A DNA stretch of 64,000 nt from Yoonia sp. GPGPB17. Lineage in GTDB: Bacteria; Pseudomonadota; Alphaproteobacteria; Rhodobacterales; Rhodobacteraceae. Positions within the stretch are counted from its first letter, which is position 1. Every line of letters starts with the position of its first letter. The notes below the pieces were generated by a model that worked only from the letters and a program-made list of their open reading frames with translations, was not told where the DNA came from and ran no database searches. Shown here in pieces: positions 41,612 to 53,471 of the stretch. A program made the translations under genes and the position numbers. The DNA lies in contig NZ_JATACI010000002.1 of NCBI RefSeq assembly GCF_037892195.1, positions 682,001 to 746,000 of the forward strand. The letters are read 5' to 3'.

Positions 41612-42961
41612 TCAAGACGCCTGCGAGTATTGTGCGACGATATCGCTAAAGCCGTCATAGCGCTGTGCAATGATCCGCGTGAGTGGCCTGCCTGCTTGGG
41701 TGATTCTGAGACCTTGACCCGTTGCGACAACAAAGCCTGCAAATTCTTCTAGAATGGCCTTGTGTATCGGCAAAAGATCACGCGCATTGGGATGCTGATC
41801 AAGCTTTTGAAGATCAATTTCAAAATCGCACATCAACATGTTGATGGCGGATGCGCGCAGCCGATCTTCAGCTGTTATCTCATAGCCGCGATGACCTGAT
41901 AACTTACCCGCCTCAACCCGTTCGATGTAGGCGGCGGTCGCGGATGCGTTTTGCACATAGCCTTGTGCGAACTGCGAAATCGACGAGGCACCGATCCCAA
42001 TCAAGGTTGGGCAGGTGTCGTCTGTATAGCCTTGGAAATTCCGGCGTAAATGTCCGCTGCATGCTGCGATGGTCAAACTGTCCTCGGGTTTGCCAAAATG
42101 GTCGATCCCGATGGCGTGATAGCCGCTGCCCGTAAAAGCTTTCGCCGCTTGGCGGGCAAGGTGATAGCGGGCCTCTTCATCGGGCAAAGCATCATGTGGG
42201 ATCAGTTTTTGTCGTTTTGAAAAGGTCGGTACATGTGCATAGCCAAAAAGGGCGATGCGGTCAGGATCAAGGGTGCGGACCTTGGCGATTGTATTGGCCA
42301 GTTTTGCAGGTGTCTGATGGGGCAGGCCATAGACCAGATCAGCGTTCAAAGATGTGATCCCTGCGGCACGCAGGCTTTCGACACATGCGCGCGTGGCCGC
42401 ATAGCTTTGCTTGCGCCCGATAGCCTCTTGCACATCAAGCGCAAAATCCTGGATGCCAATGCTGGCACGGGTCATGCCCATTTCGGCAAGGGCTGTGATT
42501 TTATCGTCGTCGACCAAGGTGGGATCAATCTCAACCGAGAAGCTAAAGTTGGGGGCGGGCGGAATGACCTCTTTAACGGCCTGCGCCAGTTCGCGGATCA
42601 TGGGGGCGGGCAAAATGGTCGGTGTGCCGCCGCCCCAGTGCATTTGCCCCATCGTAATGCCCGCGGGTAGCGCGGCGCGCAGTAACGCCAACTCGTCTTT
42701 GACGACGCGCAGATAGTTTGCAACCGGTTTGAGTGTGGTAGTGCCTTGCGTCCGGCATGCACAAAACCAGCACAGACGTTCGCAAAAGGGGATGTGGATA
42801 TAAACCGATACTGGAACCGCAGGGTTTAGCGCTTTGAGGCAACTGACCTGAAATGCCTCGCCAGTTTTTGCACTGAACGCGGTGGCGGGCGGATAGCTGG
42901 TGTAGCGCGGGACGCGGGCATCAAAAAGGCCCATGCGGCGAAGATTATCAAGGTGTTCCAT
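41612..42961 (-). CDS. hemN: Oxygen-independent coproporphyrinogen III oxidase
   Basis: A 449-residue radical SAM enzyme that converts coproporphyrinogen III to protoporphyrinogen IX without oxygen, in heme and bacteriochlorophyll synthesis. The cluster-binding motif is CERLCWFCAC (CxxxCxxCxC, Cys60, 64, 67, 69), which marks true HemN and not the HemW group. Also present are GGGTPTILPAPMIRELA, EIDPTLVDDDKI and QGYTDDTCPTLIGIGASSIS. The start at 42961 gives MEHLDNLRRMGLFDARVPRYTSYPPATAF; the upstream 19 codons cover the FNR-box region. The FNR-like box upstream suggests induction at low oxygen. Confidence 0.95.
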   Translation of the reverse strand: MEHLDNLRRMGLFDARVPRYTSYPPATAFSAKTGEAFQVSCLKALNPAVPVSVYIHIPFCERLCWFCACRTQGTTTLKPVANYLRVVKDELALLRAALPAGITMGQMHWGGGTPTILPAPMIRELAQAVKEVIPPAPNFSFSVEIDPTLVDDDKITALAEMGMTRASIGIQDFALDVQEAIGRKQSYAATRACVESLRAAGITSLNADLVYGLPHQTPAKLANTIAKVRTLDPDRIALFGYAHVPTFSKRQKLIPHDALPDEEARYHLARQAAKAFTGSGYHAIGIDHFGKPEDSLTIAACSGHLRRNFQGYTDDTCPTLIGIGASSISQFAQGYVQNASATAAYIERVEAGKLSGHRGYEITAEDRLRASAINMLMCDFEIDLQKLDQHPNARDLLPIHKAILEEFAGFVVATGQGLRITQAGRPLTRIIAQRYDGFSDIVAQYSQAS

Positions 42962-42995
42962 ACATTCACTCTGGCAGAGTGCTGCATGGGTTTTC

Positions 42996-43009
42996 TTGCG
43001 CCAGATCAA
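42996..43009 (-). promoter_or_regulatory. FNR/FnrL-like box upstream of hemN
   Basis: TTGCGCCAGATCAA, one exact half-site (ATCAA) and one degenerate (TTGCG) of TTGAT-N4-ATCAA. It is 35 bp before the hemN start. FnrL control of hemN is established in Rhodobacter. It fits but differs at two positions. Confidence 0.55.
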
Positions 43010-43032
43010 GTGGCGCAAGAATTCTGCGGCTG

Positions 43033-43638
43033 TTAGCTCAACTCGTTGATGAAACAGGCCGAAATCTCGGCGATTTGCTCGGGTGAGTGGTCCCTGCGAA
43101 AGAATGTCTTAAAACCTGTTTCGGGGAACATCAGATATGTCTGCGTTGAGTGATCGACGAGGTAGTACTCAGGGTCACCCTCCACCACACGGTAGTAGGT
43201 CTTATAGGCCTGGCTTGCGGCTTTCACCTGTTCGGGCGAGCCCGTCAATCCGATCATGTCGTCATGAAAGTTGTCGGTGAAATCCCGGACCACTTCCACA
43301 GTGTCCCTTTGTGGATCCACCGAGATAAAAACAGTACCAAGGTCAAGTCCCTGTTCTTCAAGTATATATGCCGCCTGCGCATTGCGTGCGGAATCCAACG
43401 GGCAGACGTCGGGGCAGAATGTATAGCCAAAATAGACCAGCGTCGGTTTTGTGATAACATCTGCATCAGTCACGGTTTCCCCGGTTTCCGAGATTAGTTC
43501 GAACGGACCGCCGATGGCGCTGCCTGCCACGGCAGTATCACCGCAGGGATGTGCCTGACCCGATTGCGATTGCCAAGCGTAGATCCCGATAGCGGCTGCG
43601 GCAGCGAGCGTGGTTGATCCAAAGATGACAGCTTTCAA
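43033..43638 (-). CDS. SCO1/SenC-family copper protein
   Basis: A 201-residue SCO protein that delivers copper or electrons to the CuA site of cytochrome oxidase. An N-terminal anchor (VIFGSTTLAAAAAIGIYAW) precedes the thioredoxin-like domain with the copper-binding pair Cys75 and Cys79 in GYTFCPDVCPLDSARN; the His is in YLVDHSTQTYLMFPE. I choose the TTG at 43638 because AGGAGG stands 5 bases before it and the ATG-like frame start lies 48 bases upstream of non-conserved sequence. It is upstream of hemN on the same strand. Confidence 0.9.
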   Translation of the reverse strand: MKAVIFGSTTLAAAAAIGIYAWQSQSGQAHPCGDTAVAGSAIGGPFELISETGETVTDADVITKPTLVYFGYTFCPDVCPLDSARNAQAAYILEEQGLDLGTVFISVDPQRDTVEVVRDFTDNFHDDMIGLTGSPEQVKAASQAYKTYYRVVEGDPEYYLVDHSTQTYLMFPETGFKTFFRRDHSPEQIAEISACFINELS

Positions 43639-43851
43639 GGTGGCCTCCTGAAATGAGAATAATTCTGTTGGCGCAGTATCGCGCAACGCTTCGCTTCACA
43701 ATATGCTTTCTTGCCGCACGACGCAGCAGCACAATTGTCGCGATGGCGTCACAAGATTGTGTTTCGCAACTGTCTTGGGGCCGCCTCCAAAGACTATTTT
43801 GATGAGTCTCAGAGGCCGGCTTGCAAGGTGGTTACGATCCACCGCGAAGAA

Positions 43852-44586
43852 TTAACCGCGCTTGGCCCGCCGCTGAGCAATCACCCCCTGTGCCAGCTCT
43901 TGCGTATAGTGGGCCAATGCGGCCAAATGCGCATCTGCTGCAAGCCCATCCTGGGCCTCGATCGCATCTGCAATATCGCTGTGAAATGCGACGATCTTTT
44001 CGCGTGATCGCGCGCTGAAGGTGATCATGTTCATCAATGGCTGCATAGCCTCGACCGCACCGGCCAGTTGATAAGACAGAACCGGGTTGTCCGCCGCATC
44101 GACCAACGCCCGGTGAAAGGCGACATCTGACGCGCAAAACGCTTCGTCCGTCAGTCCCGGTTGCGATTGCCTGTGTGCCTCGGCGCGCATGGTGGCCAGA
44201 TGATCAGCCGTCCGGCGCATCGCCGATAGGGGTGCGCAGGCCCGCTCCAGCGCATAGCGCGCTTCGCAGGCTGTCGCGAAACCAATATCGTTCATCGACA
44301 ACAACAAGGTCGATGTCGTGATCTGCTGTCCATAGGCATCTTCGAACTTCAGCCTGTTCACAAAGGCGCCGCCGGTGGCCCCGCGTTGTGTGCGAATAAG
44401 CGATTGTGCCGCCAATCGTTTCAGCGCTTCACGCACTGTGGGCCGTGAGACATCAAACTGTTCTGCCAGTTCCGCTTCCGAGGGCAGACGCTCATCCACG
44501 GGCAGATCGCCACAGATGATTGCATCGCGAATGGCCTTGGCAATTTGCGCCGATAAGTCGGCGGGGTTCTTGGGATCAATTTTCAT
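43852..44586 (-). CDS. GntR-family (FadR-type) regulator of the DMSP gene cluster
   Basis: A 244-residue GntR/FadR-subfamily regulator. The wHTH is at the N-terminus (AIRDAIICGDLPVDERLPSEAELAEQFDVSRPTVREALKRLAAQSLIRTQRG, about residues 14-67). The FCD ligand domain follows, with FHRALVDAADNPV and FHSDIADAIEAQDG, giving the metal-binding Asp/His positions. It is divergent from the DUF2182-to-acuI genes, and two operator cores lie beside its start. A role controlling DMSP or acrylate metabolism is inferred from position; its ligand is unknown. Confidence 0.88.
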   Translation of the reverse strand: MKIDPKNPADLSAQIAKAIRDAIICGDLPVDERLPSEAELAEQFDVSRPTVREALKRLAAQSLIRTQRGATGGAFVNRLKFEDAYGQQITTSTLLLSMNDIGFATACEARYALERACAPLSAMRRTADHLATMRAEAHRQSQPGLTDEAFCASDVAFHRALVDAADNPVLSYQLAGAVEAMQPLMNMITFSARSREKIVAFHSDIADAIEAQDGLAADAHLAALAHYTQELAQGVIAQRRAKRG

Positions 44587-44611
44587 TTGTCAGACAATTA
44601 AACGTCTGACA
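44587..44611. promoter_or_regulatory. Paired GntR/FadR-type operators
   Basis: TTGTCAGACAA at 44587-44597 fits the FadR-subfamily consensus T-N-G-T-N3-A-C-N-A exactly. A second core, GTCTGAC, lies at 44604-44610. Together they form a perfect long palindrome, arms TGTCAGAC and GTCTGACA with an 8-base centre. They sit just upstream of gntR and 59 bp before the DUF2182 start, which suits autorepression and control of the divergent operon. Confidence 0.75.
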
Positions 44612-44669
44612 TATCATTGTGCAAGCCCTGAGTCGCACTTAGCCTTTTGGGACCGTTTGGGAGGACGCC

Positions 44670-45437
44670 GTGTCGCATCTGGTTCGATCATCACTGTGGT
44701 TGTCGTTCTTCGGCGCGATCCTGTTTGCATGGTGGATGATGTACGTCATGGCGATGGACATGGACCTTGATCTGCTGGGGCGTCCGGGGCCGATGGGGCA
44801 AGCCATGGCAGATATGGACCCGCGCATGCCGATGGATATGCCAATGGCACGCTTTGGACCGCTTTTTGCAATGTGGGCGATTATGATGGCGGCGATGATG
44901 TTGCCGACACTGGTACCGACACTGACCACTTATGAGCGGCTGATGGTCAGTGCCGATGGCACCCGCGCCGGGTGGCTGGGCGTGCTGCTGGGATACTTCA
45001 TTGTTTGGGTTGGCTTTGCCGCTCTGATTACGGCTGTTCAACTGGCGCTGCTCTTTGGCGGGGTGATCAATATGCTGGGGATTGCGCCGGTCTGGCTGTC
45101 TGCCGCCTTGCTGATTGTTGTAGGCGCCTTTCAGTTCACCCGCGTTAAGGAAGTCTGTCACGGTGTGTGCCACGCACCAATGACCTATTTTCTGGGCCAT
45201 TGGAAAACAGGTTTTTCCGGCGGTTTGCGCATGGGGTTGGGTTTGGGCGCATTTTGTGTGGTCTGTTGCTGGGGCTTCATGGCCCTTGGTTTTGTTGGTG
45301 GTGTGATGAGCTTGGCCTGGATGGGTCTGGCGACAGTATTGATGGTGTTCGAAAAACTGCCTGATATCGGGCATCGTGTGATCAAACCAACCGGCGTGGC
45401 ACTGATTGCCGCTGGTCTGGCTTTGGCTGTCTTTTAA
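44670..45437 (+). CDS. DUF2182 integral membrane protein, Met-rich
   Basis: A 255-residue DUF2182 (predicted metal-binding) membrane protein. The GTG start at 44670 has GGGAGG upstream. The N-terminal part has a Met-rich periplasmic-looking stretch (MAMDMDLDLLGRPGPMGQAM, then ADMDPRMPMDMPMARFGP), followed by the family core AMWAIMMAAMMLPTLVPTLTTYERL. Four further helices and a KEVCHGVCHAPMTYF Cys/His motif precede LGLGAFCVVCCWGFMALGFVGG. Met/Cys/His clusters suggest copper. It opens an operon that runs into dmdA. Confidence 0.88.
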   Translation: MSHLVRSSLWLSFFGAILFAWWMMYVMAMDMDLDLLGRPGPMGQAMADMDPRMPMDMPMARFGPLFAMWAIMMAAMMLPTLVPTLTTYERLMVSADGTRAGWLGVLLGYFIVWVGFAALITAVQLALLFGGVINMLGIAPVWLSAALLIVVGAFQFTRVKEVCHGVCHAPMTYFLGHWKTGFSGGLRMGLGLGAFCVVCCWGFMALGFVGGVMSLAWMGLATVLMVFEKLPDIGHRVIKPTGVALIAAGLALAVF

Positions 45438-45452
45438 GGAAAGGGACGAGAT

Positions 45453-46166
45453 ATGGCTGAAAAGACGGAACGCGCACCTGCCGATCGGTTGCCGATCTCG
45501 CAGCGGATCGACCAGCGGATGGAAAGCAACCCGCTACGTCGGAAAATGAAGCCGACAGAATGGGCCATTAAGGGCGAGCTTTTTCTGAACTGCTCGTGCA
45601 CGGTCTTCTGCCCCTGCGTCGTAAGCCTTGGCGCTCATCCGCCAACAGAAGGGCACTGCCATGCATGGATGGCGATTGCCATTGATGAAGGGCATTTTGA
45701 AGGCGAGGACCTCTCAGGTCTGAACGTCGGCCTTCTTGTCGATATTCCGGGCCGTATGGCCGAGGGCAACTGGAAAGTCGCGGCCTATGTCGATGAGCGT
45801 TCTACGCAGAAGGCTTACAATGGCGTCCTGAAAATCTTTAGCGGGGCGGCTGGCGGCACCACGGGTCTTTTCACGATGCTGGTGTCCGAGATCATCGGCG
45901 CCGAGCGCGAGAAGGTCGAGATTGTGCGTGAAGGCGACAAGCGCGGCATCTATATCGGGCGCAAGATCCAGGGTGAGATTGAGATGATGAAAGGGGCAAG
46001 CCCGGATCATCCGGTGATGATCAGCAACTCAAAATACTGGATGGGCCCCGATATTATCGCAGCGGCTGGCACGAAGTCGCGGGTGCGCGACTATGGCCGT
46101 GTCTGGGACTTTGGCGGCAAGTCGGCTGAGATTTGCCCGATTGACTGGAAAGGGCCCAAGCCTTGA
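45453..46166 (+). CDS. DUF1326 Cys-rich protein
   Basis: A 237-residue DUF1326 protein. The family hallmark is the Cys cluster NCSCTVFCPC (Cys47, 49, 53, 55) and a following His (HPPTEGHCHAW), a likely metal- or thiol-redox site. The remainder is beta-rich with GVLKIFSGAAGGTTGLF and HPVMISNSKYWMGPDI. DUF1326 genes are usually next to DUF2182 genes, as here (15 bp gap). Copper handling is a common guess, not proven. The TGA overlaps the TTG start of DinB. Confidence 0.85.
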   Translation: MAEKTERAPADRLPISQRIDQRMESNPLRRKMKPTEWAIKGELFLNCSCTVFCPCVVSLGAHPPTEGHCHAWMAIAIDEGHFEGEDLSGLNVGLLVDIPGRMAEGNWKVAAYVDERSTQKAYNGVLKIFSGAAGGTTGLFTMLVSEIIGAEREKVEIVREGDKRGIYIGRKIQGEIEMMKGASPDHPVMISNSKYWMGPDIIAAAGTKSRVRDYGRVWDFGGKSAEICPIDWKGPKP

Positions 46167-46666
46167 TCACGCCAGCGTACTGTCAAATGATGGCGCGCTA
46201 CAATGCCTGGCAAAACAAGGGCCTGCGTGACATGATTGCCAATATCGACCGGGATGCGCTGTACCGTGATCGCGGTGCGTTCTTTGGGTCTATCATGGGT
46301 ACCCTCAATCATTTGTTGTGGGCCGATACGATTTGGATCAGCCGGTTTGATGGCGGTGAAGGGCCAACGGTGCCCGCCAAGGAACATCTTGAGATGACGC
46401 CAACACCTGCTGTCTGGGCCGCCGAAAATTTCCGCATGGACGCCCGCATCAGACTTTGGGCGGAAAGTGTGAGCGCAATTGATCTGGTCGGTGACCTGAC
46501 ATGGACCGCAGCGCTTTCGGATACCACGATGTCCGAGCCGATGGGGCTTTGTGTTGTACAGTTGTTCAACCACCAAACCCATCACCGTGGTCAAGTCCAC
46601 GCGATGCTAACGGCGATGGGTCTTAAGCCGAACGATACTGACCTTCCCTTCATGCCCGAGGACTAA
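46163..46666 (+). CDS. DinB-family metal-dependent protein
   Basis: A 167-residue DinB four-helix-bundle protein. The metal triad is probably the His in LNHLLWAD and the two in FNHQTHHRGQVH. Family relatives are thiol S-transferases and unknown DNA-damage-associated proteins. The TTG start at 46163 overlaps the previous stop (TTGA); TTG with coupling is plausible. The next gene, dmdA, starts 3 bp after the stop, so they are in one transcript. Confidence 0.85.
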   Translation: MITPAYCQMMARYNAWQNKGLRDMIANIDRDALYRDRGAFFGSIMGTLNHLLWADTIWISRFDGGEGPTVPAKEHLEMTPTPAVWAAENFRMDARIRLWAESVSAIDLVGDLTWTAALSDTTMSEPMGLCVVQLFNHQTHHRGQVHAMLTAMGLKPNDTDLPFMPED

Positions 46667-46668
46667 CC

Positions 46669-47768
46669 ATGGCTGTGATTGCACCTTCCCGCCGCATCCG
46701 GCGGACCCCATTTACGGACGGCGTCGAAGCCGCAGGTGTGAAGGGGTATACCGTCTATAACCATATGCTGCTGCCAACCGTGTTCCGCAGCGTCGAAGAA
46801 GACTATCACCACCTGAAAACCGCCGTGCAGGTCTGGGACGTCGCCGTTGAGCGCCAGGTTGAACTGCGTGGCCCCGACGCGGCGCGCTTGATGCAGATGC
46901 TGACCCCGCGCGATCTGCGTGGAATGTTGCCGGGGCAGTGCTACTATGTGCCGATTGTGGATGAAACCGGGGGCATGCTGAATGATCCGGTGGCGTTGAA
47001 GCTGTCTGAGGACCGCTGGTGGATTTCAATCGCCGACAGCGATCTGCTGTTTTGGGTGAAGGCGCTGGCCTACGGGTATCGTCTGGATGTTTTGGTGGAT
47101 GAGCCTGACGTGTCGCCGCTGGCTGTGCAGGGTCCGCTGGCAGAGGATCTGATGGCCCGCGTATTTGGCGATGCTGTGCGCGCGATCAAGTTCTTCCGCT
47201 TTGGCTGGTTTGATTTTCAGGGTGTCAGCATGGCGGTGGCCCGTTCGGGATATTCCAAACAGGGCGGCTATGAAATTTACGTGGATGGCACCAAGAACGG
47301 GATGCCGCTCTGGAACGCCCTTTTGAGGCGGGTAAGGATCTGGATGTACATGCCGGATGCCCCAACCTGATCGAACGGATTGAGGGGGGATTGCTGTCTT
47401 ACGGAAATGACATGACGCGCGAGAATACCCCTCACGAGTGTGGATTGGGTCGGTTTTGCTCCACCCAGACGGCCATTGGCTGTGTTGGCCGCGACGCGCT
47501 GCTGCGGGTCGCGAAAGAGGGGCCAACCCAACAAATTCGCGCCATCGCGATTGATGGTGACATGCCGGTCTGTGATCAGGTCTGGCCGATTATGGCCAAG
47601 GGGAAACGGATCGGGCAGGTGACCTCGGCGGCGAAATCGCCGGACTATGATACCAACGTTGCCATCGGTATGGTGCGGATGACCCATTGGGACGAAGGCA
47701 CAGTGTTGGATGTGCATACGCAGGATGGGCCGCGCACGGCCACAGTGCACGAGAATTTCTGGATCTAG
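46669..47768 (+). CDS. dmdA: Dimethylsulfoniopropionate demethylase DmdA, frameshifted as read
   Basis: DmdA moves a methyl group from DMSP to tetrahydrofolate, giving methylmercaptopropionate. It belongs to the GcvT fold. Features are RRTPFTDGVEAAGVKGYTVYNHMLLPTVFRSVEEDYHHLK, QVWDVAVERQVELRGPDAARLMQMLTPRDLRG, and in the second part GGLLSYGNDMTRENTPHECGLGRFC and GQVTSAAKSPDYDTNVAIGMV. The frame is lost in the T4 run 47321-47324; one added T restores WNALFEAGKDLDVHAGCPNLIERIEGGL. Restored length is 366, close to the known DmdA. The trio dmdA-acuI plus GntR is typical of roseobacters. Confidence 0.93.
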
Positions 47769-47856
47769 TAACCAGTTCCGCCGTCGGAGGCCCCGTCGGA
47801 GGTTTGAAGAGACATAGGAAGCTGGGGACGTAGCACCCCTTATGAGAGGAAAACGG

Positions 47857-48840
47857 ATGTTTAAGGCTTTGGTCGTTGAAAAGGACGAAGATGGCAAAAC
47901 CAGTGCCGCAGTGCAGGAGCTGTCACTTGAACAACTCCCCGCAGGCGATGTGACGGTGGCGGTCGAGTATTCAACGGTTAACTACAAGGACGGTTTGTGC
48001 ATCGGTCCGGGCGGCGGTTTGGTGCGCAACTATCCACATGTACCGGGCATTGACATGGCGGGCACGGTCGAGGCGTCGGACAATCCCTGCTACAAGGTCG
48101 GCGATAAGGTCGTGCTGACAGGGTGGCGCGTCGGTGAGGCGTATTGGGGGGGCTACAGCCAGAAGGCCCGTGTCAAGGCAGAGTGGCTGGTACCCTTGCC
48201 CGAAGGTCTTGATACCCGTCAGGCGATGGCGGTGGGGACTGCCGGGTTTACGGCGATGCTGGCCGTCATGGCGCTGGAAGATCATGGCATCAAGGATGGG
48301 CCTGTTCTGGTGACGGGGGCCGCAGGTGGTGTTGGTTCTGTTGCGACAGCGATCCTGGCGCATTTGGGTCATCAGGTCGCTGCGGTGACCGGACGGCCAG
48401 AAACCGCTGACTATCTGACTTCGCTGGGGGCGACGCAGATCGTACCGCGCGAAGAGATCAATGAAATCACCCGCCGTCCACTTGAGGCGGAAACCTGGGG
48501 CGGTTGTGTCGATGCCGTGGGCGGTGAGATGCTCGCGCGCGTGCTGGGGCAGATGAAATATGGTGCTTCAGTTTCTGCCGTTGGTTTGGCGGGTGGGGCA
48601 GGGATGCCTGCATCGGTCATCCCGTTCTTGCTGCGTGGTGTGAATTTGTTGGGTATCGACAGTGTGATGCAGCCCTATGACAATCGCGTCCGGGCTTGGG
48701 CGCGGATCGCAAAGGATCTGCCGATGGACAGACTTGAGGCCATGATCCAACCGGCCACTTTGACGGATTTGCCAGAGCTGGGCCGCGGGATACTGAAAGG
48801 TCAGGTCAAAGGGCGCGTTGTTGTAGATGTGAACGCCTAG
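47857..48840 (+). CDS. acuI: Acrylyl-CoA reductase (NADPH)
   Basis: A 327-residue quinone-oxidoreductase-like MDR enzyme of the YhdH/AcuI group. It detoxifies acrylyl-CoA, from DMSP cleavage or 3-hydroxypropionate, to propionyl-CoA. Key parts are VAVEYSTVNYKDGLCIGPGGGLVRNYPHVPGIDMAGTV, GYSQKARVKAEWLVPLPEGL and the NADPH fold VLVTGAAGGVGSVATAILAHLG. The MFKALVVEKDEDG start at 47857 follows AGAGGAAAACGG. It lies 88 bp after dmdA, and a clear terminator ends the unit. Confidence 0.95.
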   Translation: MFKALVVEKDEDGKTSAAVQELSLEQLPAGDVTVAVEYSTVNYKDGLCIGPGGGLVRNYPHVPGIDMAGTVEASDNPCYKVGDKVVLTGWRVGEAYWGGYSQKARVKAEWLVPLPEGLDTRQAMAVGTAGFTAMLAVMALEDHGIKDGPVLVTGAAGGVGSVATAILAHLGHQVAAVTGRPETADYLTSLGATQIVPREEINEITRRPLEAETWGGCVDAVGGEMLARVLGQMKYGASVSAVGLAGGAGMPASVIPFLLRGVNLLGIDSVMQPYDNRVRAWARIAKDLPMDRLEAMIQPATLTDLPELGRGILKGQVKGRVVVDVNA

Positions 48841-48862
48841 GCTCACTGAAAACACGGTTTCA

Positions 48863-48891
48863 AAGACCGCCCCACTGGGGCGGTCTTTTTG
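48863..48891 (+). terminator. Terminator after acuI
   Basis: Stem AAGACCGCCCC / GGGGCGGTCTT, a 3-base loop and TTTTTG. It lies 23 bp after acuI and ends the DUF2182-to-acuI unit. Confidence 0.95.
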
Positions 48892-49049: not shown

Positions 49050-50735
49050 ATGGCACCAAAACCACCACTATCGGAACTTCCGATTAAGACCGCCGACGTC
49101 GGTTTTTATCGAGGGTTCAGCGTCAATGTGACTGTCATCAGTAAGATCATCATCAGCATCCTTGTCGTTTGGGCGATCGTCTGGCCTGAGTGGGCTGGCG
49201 AGGTACTGGGCGCGTGGAACGCGGTCATCCTGAACAACTTTGCATCCTGGTACATTTGGACGGTCGCATTCTTTGTTATCGTTTGTCTCGGATTGGCGCT
49301 TTGGCCAACAGCGGGGCGGCTCAATCTAGGTCAACCAGGTGAGAAACCGGAGTTCTCCAATTTCTCTTGGTTCTCGATGATGTTTGGTGCCGGTATCGGT
49401 GTCGGCATGCTGACCTGGGCTGTGGCCGAACCGATTGCGCACTTCAAAAACAACCCCTCGGTTATTCAGGGTGTGACAACGGCGCTGGAAGCCGACAACG
49501 TGCGCACGGCCTATGTATGGTCTTTCCTGCACTGGGGTTTGGGTGCTTGGGCGTGTTATGCTGTTGCGGGCCTTGCGCTTGCATTCTTTAGCTATCGCCG
49601 TGGATTGCCACTGACGATCCGGTCTTCTTTGACACCTTTGTTTGGCAAGTCCTTGTCTGGGACAGTAGGTCATATCATCGACATTGTGGCGGTTGTTGCG
49701 ACTATCCTGGGTGTTGCACAAACACTCGGCTTCGGTGTCGAACAATTTGTGGCCGGTCTGACACGCATTGGTATTGGCGGTCTGGCGCTGGATGATGGGT
49801 CTGCGACCACCTTAGGCATTGTCGTGGCCTTGCTGGTGATCATGGGGGCATCGACGCTGTCCGCGCTTTCGGGTGTTGGCAAAGGCATCAAGTGGCTGTC
49901 GAACATCAATATGACGCTCTCGATTGTCTTGTTGAGCTTCTTCATCCTGTTTGGGGCAACATGGTTCGGTGCGACAGCGTTCTTCGTGGGTATCTGGGAC
50001 TATCTGATCCAGCTGCCATGGTTGAGCTTCAACGTCTACCGTTCTGACGGTGTTGAAGGGTCCGAAGCGTTCTTGCTGGCGCAGTGGCAGGGCTGGTGGC
50101 CTGTGTTCTACTGGGCATGGTGGATCGCATTTGCACCCTTCGTTGGCCTGTTCCTGGCGCGTATTTCACGTGGCCGGACAATCCGCGAGTTCGTCTTGGG
50201 CGCGATGATCGTACCCTCGCTGATGTGCTTTGTCTGGTTTTCATGGGCCGGTGGGACGGCCGTTGATCTTGAACTCAATGGCGATGCTGGTGGCTTGATC
50301 CTTGATGCGGCCAATGGTGACAAGATCTTTGCGATGACCGAGTTCATGCTGTCACCTGTCAGCCAGGCACTGGCGTGGGGCATGGCGGTGATGATCGTGG
50401 TCTTGCTTTTGACGTTCCTTGTGACCTCGGCTGACTCTGCTGTGTTGATCGTGAACACGATCAATGCGGCTGGGGACGAAGGGCCGAAGGCGCGTCCGCA
50501 CATTTTGTTCTGGGGTGCTGCTCTGGGCCTTGTTGTGGCAGGCTTGCTGATATCTGGCGGAACCGGAGCCATTCAAACCGCGATGGTGATTGGCGCGTTG
50601 CCCTTCTCGGTGGTGATGGTGTTGATGTGTCTTGCCCTGATCAAGGCGATCTACAACGACGGACGCCGTGAAGCAGCGGGTGTGCCAACGACCCATGGCG
50701 AGATCCAGGCCGCGGCAGCAACGCCAGCCGAGTAA
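49050..50735 (+). CDS. BCCT-family betaine/carnitine/choline (or DMSP) transporter
   Basis: A 561-residue twelve-helix BCCT symporter. Motifs are SMMFGAGIGVGMLTWAVAEPIAHF, the Trp-rich substrate region WWPVFYWAWWIAFAPFVGLFLARISRGRTIREFVLG, and the core FLVTSADSAVLIVNTI. BCCT carriers take up quaternary amines and the sulfonium DMSP; the DMSP block just upstream makes DMSP or glycine betaine the likely cargo. It has its own upstream gap of 158 bp after a terminator and a strong terminator after it. Confidence 0.92.
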   Translation: MAPKPPLSELPIKTADVGFYRGFSVNVTVISKIIISILVVWAIVWPEWAGEVLGAWNAVILNNFASWYIWTVAFFVIVCLGLALWPTAGRLNLGQPGEKPEFSNFSWFSMMFGAGIGVGMLTWAVAEPIAHFKNNPSVIQGVTTALEADNVRTAYVWSFLHWGLGAWACYAVAGLALAFFSYRRGLPLTIRSSLTPLFGKSLSGTVGHIIDIVAVVATILGVAQTLGFGVEQFVAGLTRIGIGGLALDDGSATTLGIVVALLVIMGASTLSALSGVGKGIKWLSNINMTLSIVLLSFFILFGATWFGATAFFVGIWDYLIQLPWLSFNVYRSDGVEGSEAFLLAQWQGWWPVFYWAWWIAFAPFVGLFLARISRGRTIREFVLGAMIVPSLMCFVWFSWAGGTAVDLELNGDAGGLILDAANGDKIFAMTEFMLSPVSQALAWGMAVMIVVLLLTFLVTSADSAVLIVNTINAAGDEGPKARPHILFWGAALGLVVAGLLISGGTGAIQTAMVIGALPFSVVMVLMCLALIKAIYNDGRREAAGVPTTHGEIQAAAATPAE

Positions 50736-52054: not shown

Positions 52055-53471
52055 ATGGGCAAACCCCCATATTGATGTGGTTCCGGCGTGATCTGCGCCT
52101 TGGCGATCACGCGGCGCTGACAGCAGCCTGTACGGCGGGCCGCCCTGTGATTCCGGTCTTTATCTACGATGAGCTAACTGACGCCATGGGCGCGGCCCCA
52201 AAGATGCGCTTGGGATTATCTGTTACGGACCTGAACGGATCGCTCGCGCAGAAGGGCAGCCGTTTGATATTGAGGCGGGGCAAGGCGTTAGATGTGTTGC
52301 GGGATCTGATCGCGCAAACTGGGGCAGGGGCCGTCTATTGGTCACGCCTTTGCGATCCGCAAAGCCGCGAACGCGATACGACACTGAAGGCGGCGCTGAA
52401 GGACGACGGTATCGTTGCCGAGAGCTTTGAGGGCCATGTCCTGTTTGAACCTTGGACGGTCGCGACCAAGACTGGTGGGTTTTACAAAGTCTATACGCCG
52501 ATGTGGAAGTCTGTGCGCAACCGTGCAGTGCCAGCGGCGCTGCCCGCGCCCGGTAAAATCCCGGCGCCAGAGGCGTGGCCGCAATCGGATGCCCTCGGCG
52601 ACTGGCAGATGGATGCGGCGATGCACCGGGGGCGGATGGGCTCAAAAGCAATTGCACTGTTGGTGAAGCGGCTGCGCTGAACAGGCTTCACAGGTTCATT
52701 GCTAACCAAGTGTCGAATTATGTGGTGAATCGCGACTTGCCTGCGGTCGATGGCACCTCACGCCTGTCCGAAAATCTGACCTATGGCGAAATCAGCCCGC
52801 GGACCTGCTGGCATGCCGGATGGGCGGCGTTGAATGAGGGGGGAGATGACGCCGAAGTATTCCTGAAAGAACTGGTCTGGCGTGAATTTGCCTATCATCT
52901 GGCTTTTCACACGCCGCGCATGACAAGCCGCAACTGGAAAGAAGACTGGGATGCGTTTCCGTGGAACACTGATGAAGATCGCCCCGAGGTACAGGCCTGG
53001 AAACAGGGGCGCACGGGCATCCGCTTTGTCGATGCGGCCATGCGCGAGATGTATGTGACCGGCACAATGCACAACCGTGGTCGGATGATCGTCGCCTCTT
53101 ATCTGACCAAGCATCTGCTGTGTCACTGGAAGATCGGTCTGAATTGGTTCGCCGATTGCCTGATTGATTGGGACCCCTGCAGCAACGCGATGGGTTGGCA
53201 ATGGTCGGCTGGCTCTGGCCCGGACGCGACACCGTACTTCCGTGTCTTCAATCCGGTGACTCAGCTTGACAAGTTTGATAGAGATCGCGCGTACGTCAAA
53301 AAATGGATCGCGGAAGGAGCCAAGACCCCCAGCGCGACGGCTTTGGCATACTATGATATGATACCGCTTAGTTGGGGCATGACGGCGCAGGATCGTTATC
53401 CTGATCCAATTGTTCCCGCAGATGAAGGACGCAAGCGCGCCTTGGACGCCTATCAGAACCGGGGGTTCTGA
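52055..53471 (+). CDS. phrB: Deoxyribodipyrimidine photolyase/cryptochrome, two frameshifts as read
   Basis: A photolyase that repairs UV pyrimidine dimers with FADH- and light. The first half is the DNA-photolyase domain WFRRDLRLGDHAAL. FAD-binding C-terminal motifs are RTCWHAGWAALNEGG, FLKELVWREFAYHLAFHTPRM, GIRFVDAAMREMYVTGTMHNRGRMIVASYLTKHLL, WFADCLIDWDPCSNAMGWQWSAGSGPDATPYFRVFNP. ATG at 52055 has GGAGG four bases before it, but the C5 run 52064-52068 throws off the frame; a sixth C gives MGKPPILMWFRRDL. The G5 run 52628-52632 is also one base short; a sixth G gives HRGADGLKSNCTVGEAAAL. Restored length 472. Confidence 0.92.

Follow-up and report, generated by a model that had tools for sequence, protein, structure and literature searches.

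A predicted GntR-controlled operon linking DUF2182, DUF1326 and DinB genes with dmdA and acuI in Yoonia sp. GPGPB17 and other Rhodobacteraceae

Introduction

In Ruegeria pomeroyi the gene for dimethylsulfoniopropionate (DMSP) demethylase, dmdA, is followed by acuI, the gene for acryloyl-CoA reductase, and both are co-induced by DMSP and acrylate from a promoter located within a 350 bp fragment that ends in dmdA (PMC3338564). The same succession of dmdA and acuI is found in Yoonia sp. GPGPB17, at positions 43852..48891 of a 64,000 nt stretch of contig NZ_JATACI010000002.1 (682,001-746,000), which is hereafter called the window. There, by contrast, the predicted operator precedes a gene for a DUF2182 membrane protein, which is followed at gaps of a few bases by the genes for a DUF1326 protein and a DinB-superfamily protein and by dmdA. 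Neither "GntR" nor "DUF" occurs in the main text of the R. pomeroyi paper (PMC3338564); "GntR" is likewise missing from two further papers that include dmdA, and "copper" from three papers examined.

Three other described systems resemble the locus in part. The PpoB1-PpoB2 system of Marinomonas mediterranea likewise includes an operon-encoded COG5486 membrane protein, and an involvement in copper transfer is reported for PpoB2, but its client, a copper tyrosinase, is encoded within its own operon, whereas the operon in the window is without a cuproenzyme (PMC2855505). The mtoX-SCO1/SenC-mauG genes are also a DMSP-linked set with a putative copper chaperone, which unlike that of the window belongs to another family, stands under an IclR regulator and is accompanied by a gene for a copper enzyme (PMC5739008). 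The acuR-acuI-dddL operon of Rhodobacter sphaeroides, an acrylate-responsive acuI operon as well, differs in being described as a set of three genes, with a TetR-type regulator (AcuR) and a lyase (PMC3017554, PMC3338564). No papers on DUF2182, DUF1326, PF09948, PF07040 or SPO1909-SPO1912 were found in the open literature searched, in which coverage of subscription journals is limited, and in the portions seen no report was found of the leading module with dmdA, of a linkage to acuI without dmdA, or of the predicted operator. The operon and its enzymes are already known; what is apparently new is the conserved leading module, the acuI linkage in the absence of dmdA and the predicted operator. 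The explanation that we prefer, and to which we give slightly better than an even chance, is a DMSP/acrylate operon under GntR control with a Cu(I)-handling membrane module at its front.

Results and Discussion

Conservation of the operon and its predicted operator

The locus forms one predicted GntR-controlled unit that is conserved across the Rhodobacteraceae, and both the operon and the operator are well supported. Conservation was assessed in the best 80 of at least 578 confirmed dmdA loci in a genome collection and, so that close relatives would not dominate the picture, in a broad survey of 248 Rhodobacteraceae with one genome per genus. Among the best 80 loci, DUF2182 lies upstream of dmdA in 70, with gntR near in 64 of these; five others are cut by contig ends (L019, L031, L043, L051, L067), the pair is absent from the remaining five (L035, L046, L053, L055, L063), and DinB is missing from a minority. 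In the broad survey, the cut-off of the dmdA model NF009133 was exceeded at 116 loci in 106 genomes and PF09948 was present in 131 genomes (at least 150 places in 130 genomes among the matches listed). The trio adjoins dmdA well beyond the window, as the initial annotation required. Of the 106 dmdA genomes, each from a different genus, 81 carry DUF2182 no more than 5 kb upstream of dmdA and on its strand.

The initial annotation had placed two GntR-type cores between gntR and DUF2182 and had given gaps of 15, -4 and 2 bp from DUF2182 to dmdA; both descriptions agree with the coordinates. The predicted operator consensus is AWWTGTCWGACAWTT, derived from 117 core instances in relatives. All 64 of the best 80 loci that have both gntR and DUF2182 contain at least one GTCNGAC in the gap between them, against a background of 0.34 per kb over the best 80 loci, so that the presence of the core in these gaps exceeds chance, while a core within 350 bp before dmdA occurs in only one of the 64. 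The commonest spacing of the core pair is 15 bp, as in the window, with 33 bp in some loci and other values elsewhere. Where the genes keep the order of the operon without an adjacent dmdA, a core is found within 400 bp upstream in 8 of 10 loci with gntR versus 2 of 23 without it (3 of 36 could not be scored). We propose the GntR protein as the dedicated repressor of the unit. In the Yoonia genome itself, a search for pairs at exactly the 15 bp spacing returned a single intergenic pair; a second pair, at C2:197626, was rejected as a regulon site and taken as chance, as it lies inside a recombinase-like reading frame. No common regulator was seen among the 10 genes scanned upstream of gntR-less units, which encode solute-binding proteins, a glycosyltransferase, a chromate transporter, a major facilitator superfamily protein, an acyltransferase-like protein, one LuxR-type helix-turn-helix protein and one protein without a match.

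Cotranscription of the trio with dmdA and acuI, as proposed in the initial annotation, is likely in the window and does not extend to all lineages. The 2 bp between DinB and dmdA leave no intergenic space for a promoter, and a consensus scan of the DinB gene of the window detected none, although one may still lie within it. In R. pomeroyi, the 350 bp fragment is inducible alone in reporter fusions, about 14-fold by acrylate and about 10-fold by DMSP and not by methylmercaptopropionate (MMPA) (PMC3338564, Todd et al. 2012), and a single transcript is therefore not universal. A Ruegeria locus has a gap of 166 bp before dmdA (L077:9834-10000) without GTCNGAC and, together with the R. pomeroyi fragment, suggests that an internal promoter may be present where a lineage has a gap of this kind. 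Inspection by eye shows an inverted repeat in the Ruegeria gap, TCCAAC...GTTGGA, as a candidate for a second operator.

The fragment and the Ruegeria gap, along with the 25 of 106 dmdA genomes that lack an adjacent DUF2182, would suit an explanation in which DUF2182, DUF1326 and DinB are mere neighbours, without functional coupling, of a dmdA-acuI pair expressed from its own promoter. This we regard as very improbable, as in 42 of the 64 loci no more than 12 bases separate dmdA from the point where the upstream match ends, the 350 bp preceding dmdA are free of a core in 63 of the 64, and the linkage persists across two divergent DUF2182 subclades and into other families.

Linkage to acuI in the absence of dmdA

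Outside the dmdA-adjacent set, 68 of 69 DUF2182 places were fetched, in 67 loci; the 69th, in G167, is the second piece of a DUF2182 copy that is split, and is in fact beside dmdA. By gene order, the 67 loci comprise 25 with DUF1326 before DUF2182, 36 with the order of the window or remnants of it, and 6 that were left unclassified. The proteins of the 25 reverse-order loci are 25-42% identical to those of the window (tblastn), and no acuI, dmdA or gntR is close to them. Although dmdA is not adjacent in the 36 operon-order loci, 26 of them have acuI nearby, located behind on the same strand in 24 (among them L125, with a dmdA-like gene in between, and L117, without a DUF1326 match) and divergently beyond gntR in two (L113, L114). 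The unit is more firmly linked to acuI than to dmdA. In a midpoint-rooted tree of 131 DUF2182 sequences, all operon-order sequences except L113 and L114 form one clade (support 0.977) with two subclades, both of which hold units with and without dmdA and include loci that have acuI but no adjacent dmdA.

Across 289 genomes of the class, DUF1326 was matched at an E value of 1e-30 in 13, of which 9 belong to other families. Seven of these nine loci were fetched, the two weakest being left out, and in five an AMP-binding acyl-CoA synthetase gene stands behind DUF1326, three of the five coming from one genus and hence not being independent; in one of the five, dmdA (503.9 bits) lies between DUF1326 and the ligase. 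The neighbours examined in the other two loci included no ligase, and in L205 the gene order is reversed. The ligases match the broad PRK08162 "acyl-CoA synthetase" subfamily, and no closer solved relative decides their substrate. On a Marinovum algicola plasmid, DUF2182, DUF1326, acyl-CoA synthetase, DmdA, an alcohol dehydrogenase (matching the AcuI of the window at 78%) and SBP56 are encoded in a row. In the deposited annotation, DUF2182 is called "Transmembrane protein involved in DMSP breakdown" and DUF1326 "protein involved in DMSP breakdown"; the link to DMSP had therefore already been noticed in an annotation. A link to DMSP lyases was set aside after a survey of cupin lyases (PF16867) that did not include DddP and DddD: matches above the cut-off occur in 16 of the 29 genomes that lack dmdA and have operon-order DUF2182, in 35 of 113 other dmdA-less genomes and in 50 of 106 dmdA genomes.

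Two side observations concern the other type of pair, in which DUF1326 comes first: in three loci (L102:7788-9881, L115:7778-9874, L143:4946-7039) the gene before it encodes alpha/beta-hydrolase and glycosyltransferase-28 C-terminal domains, and on Cupriavidus pHG1 (L185:4033-5732) it is followed by a GDCCVxC (seleno)protein.

Evidence on a possible role in copper handling

Copper or thiol chemistry had been suggested in the initial annotation from a Met-rich part of DUF2182 and the NCSC..FCPC motif of DUF1326 (residues 46-55). Both motifs are present, and copper is made plausible by PpoB2 of Marinomonas, for which copper transfer to a tyrosinase is reported (PMC2855505), and by a relative in Sulfitobacter; the Met-rich loop of the window's DUF2182, however, is reduced or absent in many relatives, and what is conserved instead are Met and Cys residues in the DUF2182 helices and the Cys cluster of DUF1326. 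Over 41 operon-type sequences, residues M68, M72, M76, M77, C163, C167, C196, C199, C200, M204 and M218 of DUF2182 are invariant, and all 11 fall in predicted helices of a model that is helical (predicted local distance difference test score 92.5). The present Pfam name of the family is PpoB2, copper chaperone. The Sulfitobacter relative, encoded on a plasmid of Sulfitobacter mediterraneus and 50% identical to the DUF2182 of the window, belongs to the operon-type clade and lies near genes for a heavy-metal P-type ATPase, cueR, glutaredoxin and DsbB. From its sequence, DUF2182 is predicted to be a Cu(I)-handling membrane protein. In DinB, H50 is invariant over 30 sequences and H137, H140 and H141 are nearly so; these four residues constitute the metal site of the DinB/YfiT superfamily.

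The fold of DUF1326 may resemble that of acetoacetate decarboxylase, and an enzyme-like fold would suit, in place of a copper module, a step in the chemistry of acrylate, short-chain acids or acyl-CoA that is carried out by an enzyme together with a membrane protein, in which DUF1326 acts on a small acid or thioester and DUF2182 is its membrane partner. We hold this to be rather unlikely: the matches in question reach Foldseek TM-scores of only 0.34-0.41, no Lys that could serve Schiff-base chemistry reaches 90% conservation over the first 27 rows or is among the invariants of all 52, the invariants common to both DUF1326 types include four Cys of one cluster, and DUF2182 has its conserved Met and Cys and a copper-transfer relative.

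A special link to methanethiol, also raised as a possibility in the initial annotation, was not supported, since acuI persists in 26 of 36 units without adjacent dmdA, mtoX does not track the pair in dmdA genomes, and MMPA, the next step towards methanethiol, does not induce dmdA-acuI in R. pomeroyi, unlike acrylate (PMC3338564). A rival explanation would make DUF2182-DUF1326 a dedicated copper chaperone for the methanethiol oxidase MtoX, which acts downstream of demethylation and is copper-dependent (PMC5739008). The gene mtoX does stand beside gntR in G043 (C11:643473-644846) and G240 (C14:36084-37460), behind dmdA in G066 (C1:190712-192088, at a site that lacks DUF2182) and after acuI on Marinovum pMaD9, and among the 142 dmdA-less genomes it is commoner with operon-order DUF2182 (10/29) than without (10/113), a link that can be explained by phylogeny. 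In dmdA genomes the two are not associated, as mtoX is present in 48 of the 81 that have an adjacent DUF2182 and absent from the other 33, and is present in 15 of the 25 that have none; the gene is accompanied by its own SCO1/SenC in many bacteria including R. pomeroyi (PMC5739008), and the partner that remains after the loss of dmdA is acuI. MtoX was set aside as the specific client, having shown no association with the pair in the dmdA genomes of the survey, and was kept as an improbable rival. Because mtoX does not track the pair within these genomes, we prefer, with moderate confidence, a role of DUF2182-DUF1326 in copper handling in general, copper itself being inferred. The places in a few genomes where mtoX stands directly beside gntR, dmdA or acuI include L181:13964-15361.

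Several observations weigh against an operon led by a copper-handling module. A need for copper is not known for DmdA or AcuI, and the operon, with its genes for DUF1326, DinB, dmdA and acuI, encodes no copper enzyme as client. Most of the neighbours examined around other DUF2182-DUF1326 pairs are unrelated to copper, the copper-flanked Sulfitobacter gene is a single case with no DUF1326 annotated alongside, and the enzyme-like fold of DUF1326 and the independently inducible R. pomeroyi fragment count here as well. Of the 106 dmdA genomes, 7 have DUF2182 elsewhere and 18 show none, and gntR-dmdA-acuI units occur without the pair (L134, L169, L170; L133 with DinB only), so that the pair is dispensable. 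A core is found between dmdA and acuI in 3 of 64 loci, acuI is missing in 10 of the 36 operon-order loci (4 of them cut by contig ends), and L113 and L114, counted among the 26 with acuI, have it divergent, without a core, and branch outside the operon clade.

Proposed mechanism

In the GntR-controlled operon led by a copper-handling module that we favour, it is strongly suggested that the FCD-type GntR protein, dedicated to this unit, binds both GTCNGAC cores of the divergent promoter region. Acrylate or acryloyl-CoA is the probable effector, to judge from the induction in R. pomeroyi, stronger with acrylate than with DMSP and lacking with MMPA, which we tie to GntR by inference. De-repression would then give a transcript running from DUF2182 through acuI to the terminator that follows it, as the gaps and this terminator indicate. 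DUF2182 would be a member of the PpoB2 copper-transfer family, located in the inner membrane and lined with Met and Cys, and DUF1326 its partner with the Cys cluster; both would most likely move or buffer Cu(I) during exposure to acrylate, an electrophile consuming thiols, and to reduced methyl-sulfur compounds, which bind Cu(I). DinB would probably be a metal-dependent, thiol-transferase-like helper, and dmdA a frequent passenger between the pair module and its steadier partner acuI. A bolder version, which we consider possible but doubtful, is an acrylate-switched copper-homeostasis unit within the DMSP/acrylate catabolism of marine Alphaproteobacteria, in which GntR senses acrylate or acryloyl-CoA and turns on the DUF2182-DUF1326 Cu(I) system, the DinB thiol enzyme and acuI, dmdA having been repeatedly gained or lost in this older acrylate-stress unit.

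Gene content of the locus

The features of the locus are listed in Table 1. The genes for DUF2182, DUF1326 and DinB, described as fused into the operon in the initial annotation, are separate. The gap between dmdA and acuI is 88 bp, given the acuI start listed. AcuI scores 441.2 bits against the subfamily model TIGR02823 (cut-off 297.25) and 417.5 bits against the equivalog model NF051456, below its cut-off of 440, which fits the Rhodobacteraceae badly, because only 30 of the 248 genomes of the family exceed it.

Table 1. Features of the dmdA-acuI locus, in window coordinates.
Feature	Position	Strand	Evidence or remark
gntR, FCD-type (FadR subfamily) regulator, divergent from operon	43852..44586	-	Pfam GntR 67.4 bits, FCD 64.6 bits
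Operator core 1 (predicted), GTCAGAC	44589..44595		GTCNGAC core
Operator core 2 (predicted), GTCTGAC	44604..44610		Centre 15 bp from core 1
DUF2182/PpoB2 (COG5486-type) membrane protein, GTG start	44670..45437	+	PF09948 192.6 bits, cut-off 28.7
DUF1326 protein with five-Cys cluster	45453..46166	+	PF07040 168.8 bits
DinB-superfamily protein, TTG start, 4 bp overlap with DUF1326	46163..46666	+	PF05163 79.0 bits
dmdA, DMSP demethylase, frame broken near 47322	46669..47768	+	NF009133, two pieces
acuI, acryloyl-CoA reductase	47857..48840	+	TIGR02823
Intrinsic terminator, 12-pair stem 48862-48888, T-rich tail	48862..48891	+	Closes the unit

The dmdA gene is not one open frame, a feature absent from the initial annotation: it runs from 46669 to 47325 in one frame and from 47322 to 47768 in another. 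Against NF009133 (equivalog cut-off 410), the first piece passes alone with 428.2 bits and the second scores 185.8. In the relatives L002-L004, dmdA is an unbroken frame of 366 residues; compared with L002, codon changes are 93 synonymous and 3 non-synonymous before the break and 60 and 12 after it, and the spacing of the pieces differs by one base from that in the best 80 relatives. A photolyase gene (52060-53468) is likewise frame-broken, near 52632, which hints at indel errors of the assembly. The dmdA break is probably an assembly error, or else a very recent mutation, because there are two breaks in the roughly 20 kb compared, the coding pattern is kept and the spacing is one base off.

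A BCCT transporter, a possible DMSP importer, is encoded after the operon (49050-50735), as in many of the best 80 relatives. Beyond gntR, hemN and a SCO1/SenC copper-chaperone gene (41612-43644) are matched in some near relatives only.

Implications for DMSP metabolism

The gene dmdA is a widely used marker of ocean sulfur cycling, and in 81 of 106 dmdA genera the unit to which it belongs starts with genes to which no role is assigned and, in the loci scored, with a predicted operator. If copper handling belongs to the pathway, the fate of DMSP, demethylation versus cleavage to dimethyl sulfide, could depend on copper supply or copper stress; and should an acrylate-switched copper unit prove true, the toxicity of acrylate would in part be copper toxicity. 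The operator consensus offers a direct route to what switches dmdA on in the Rhodobacteraceae.

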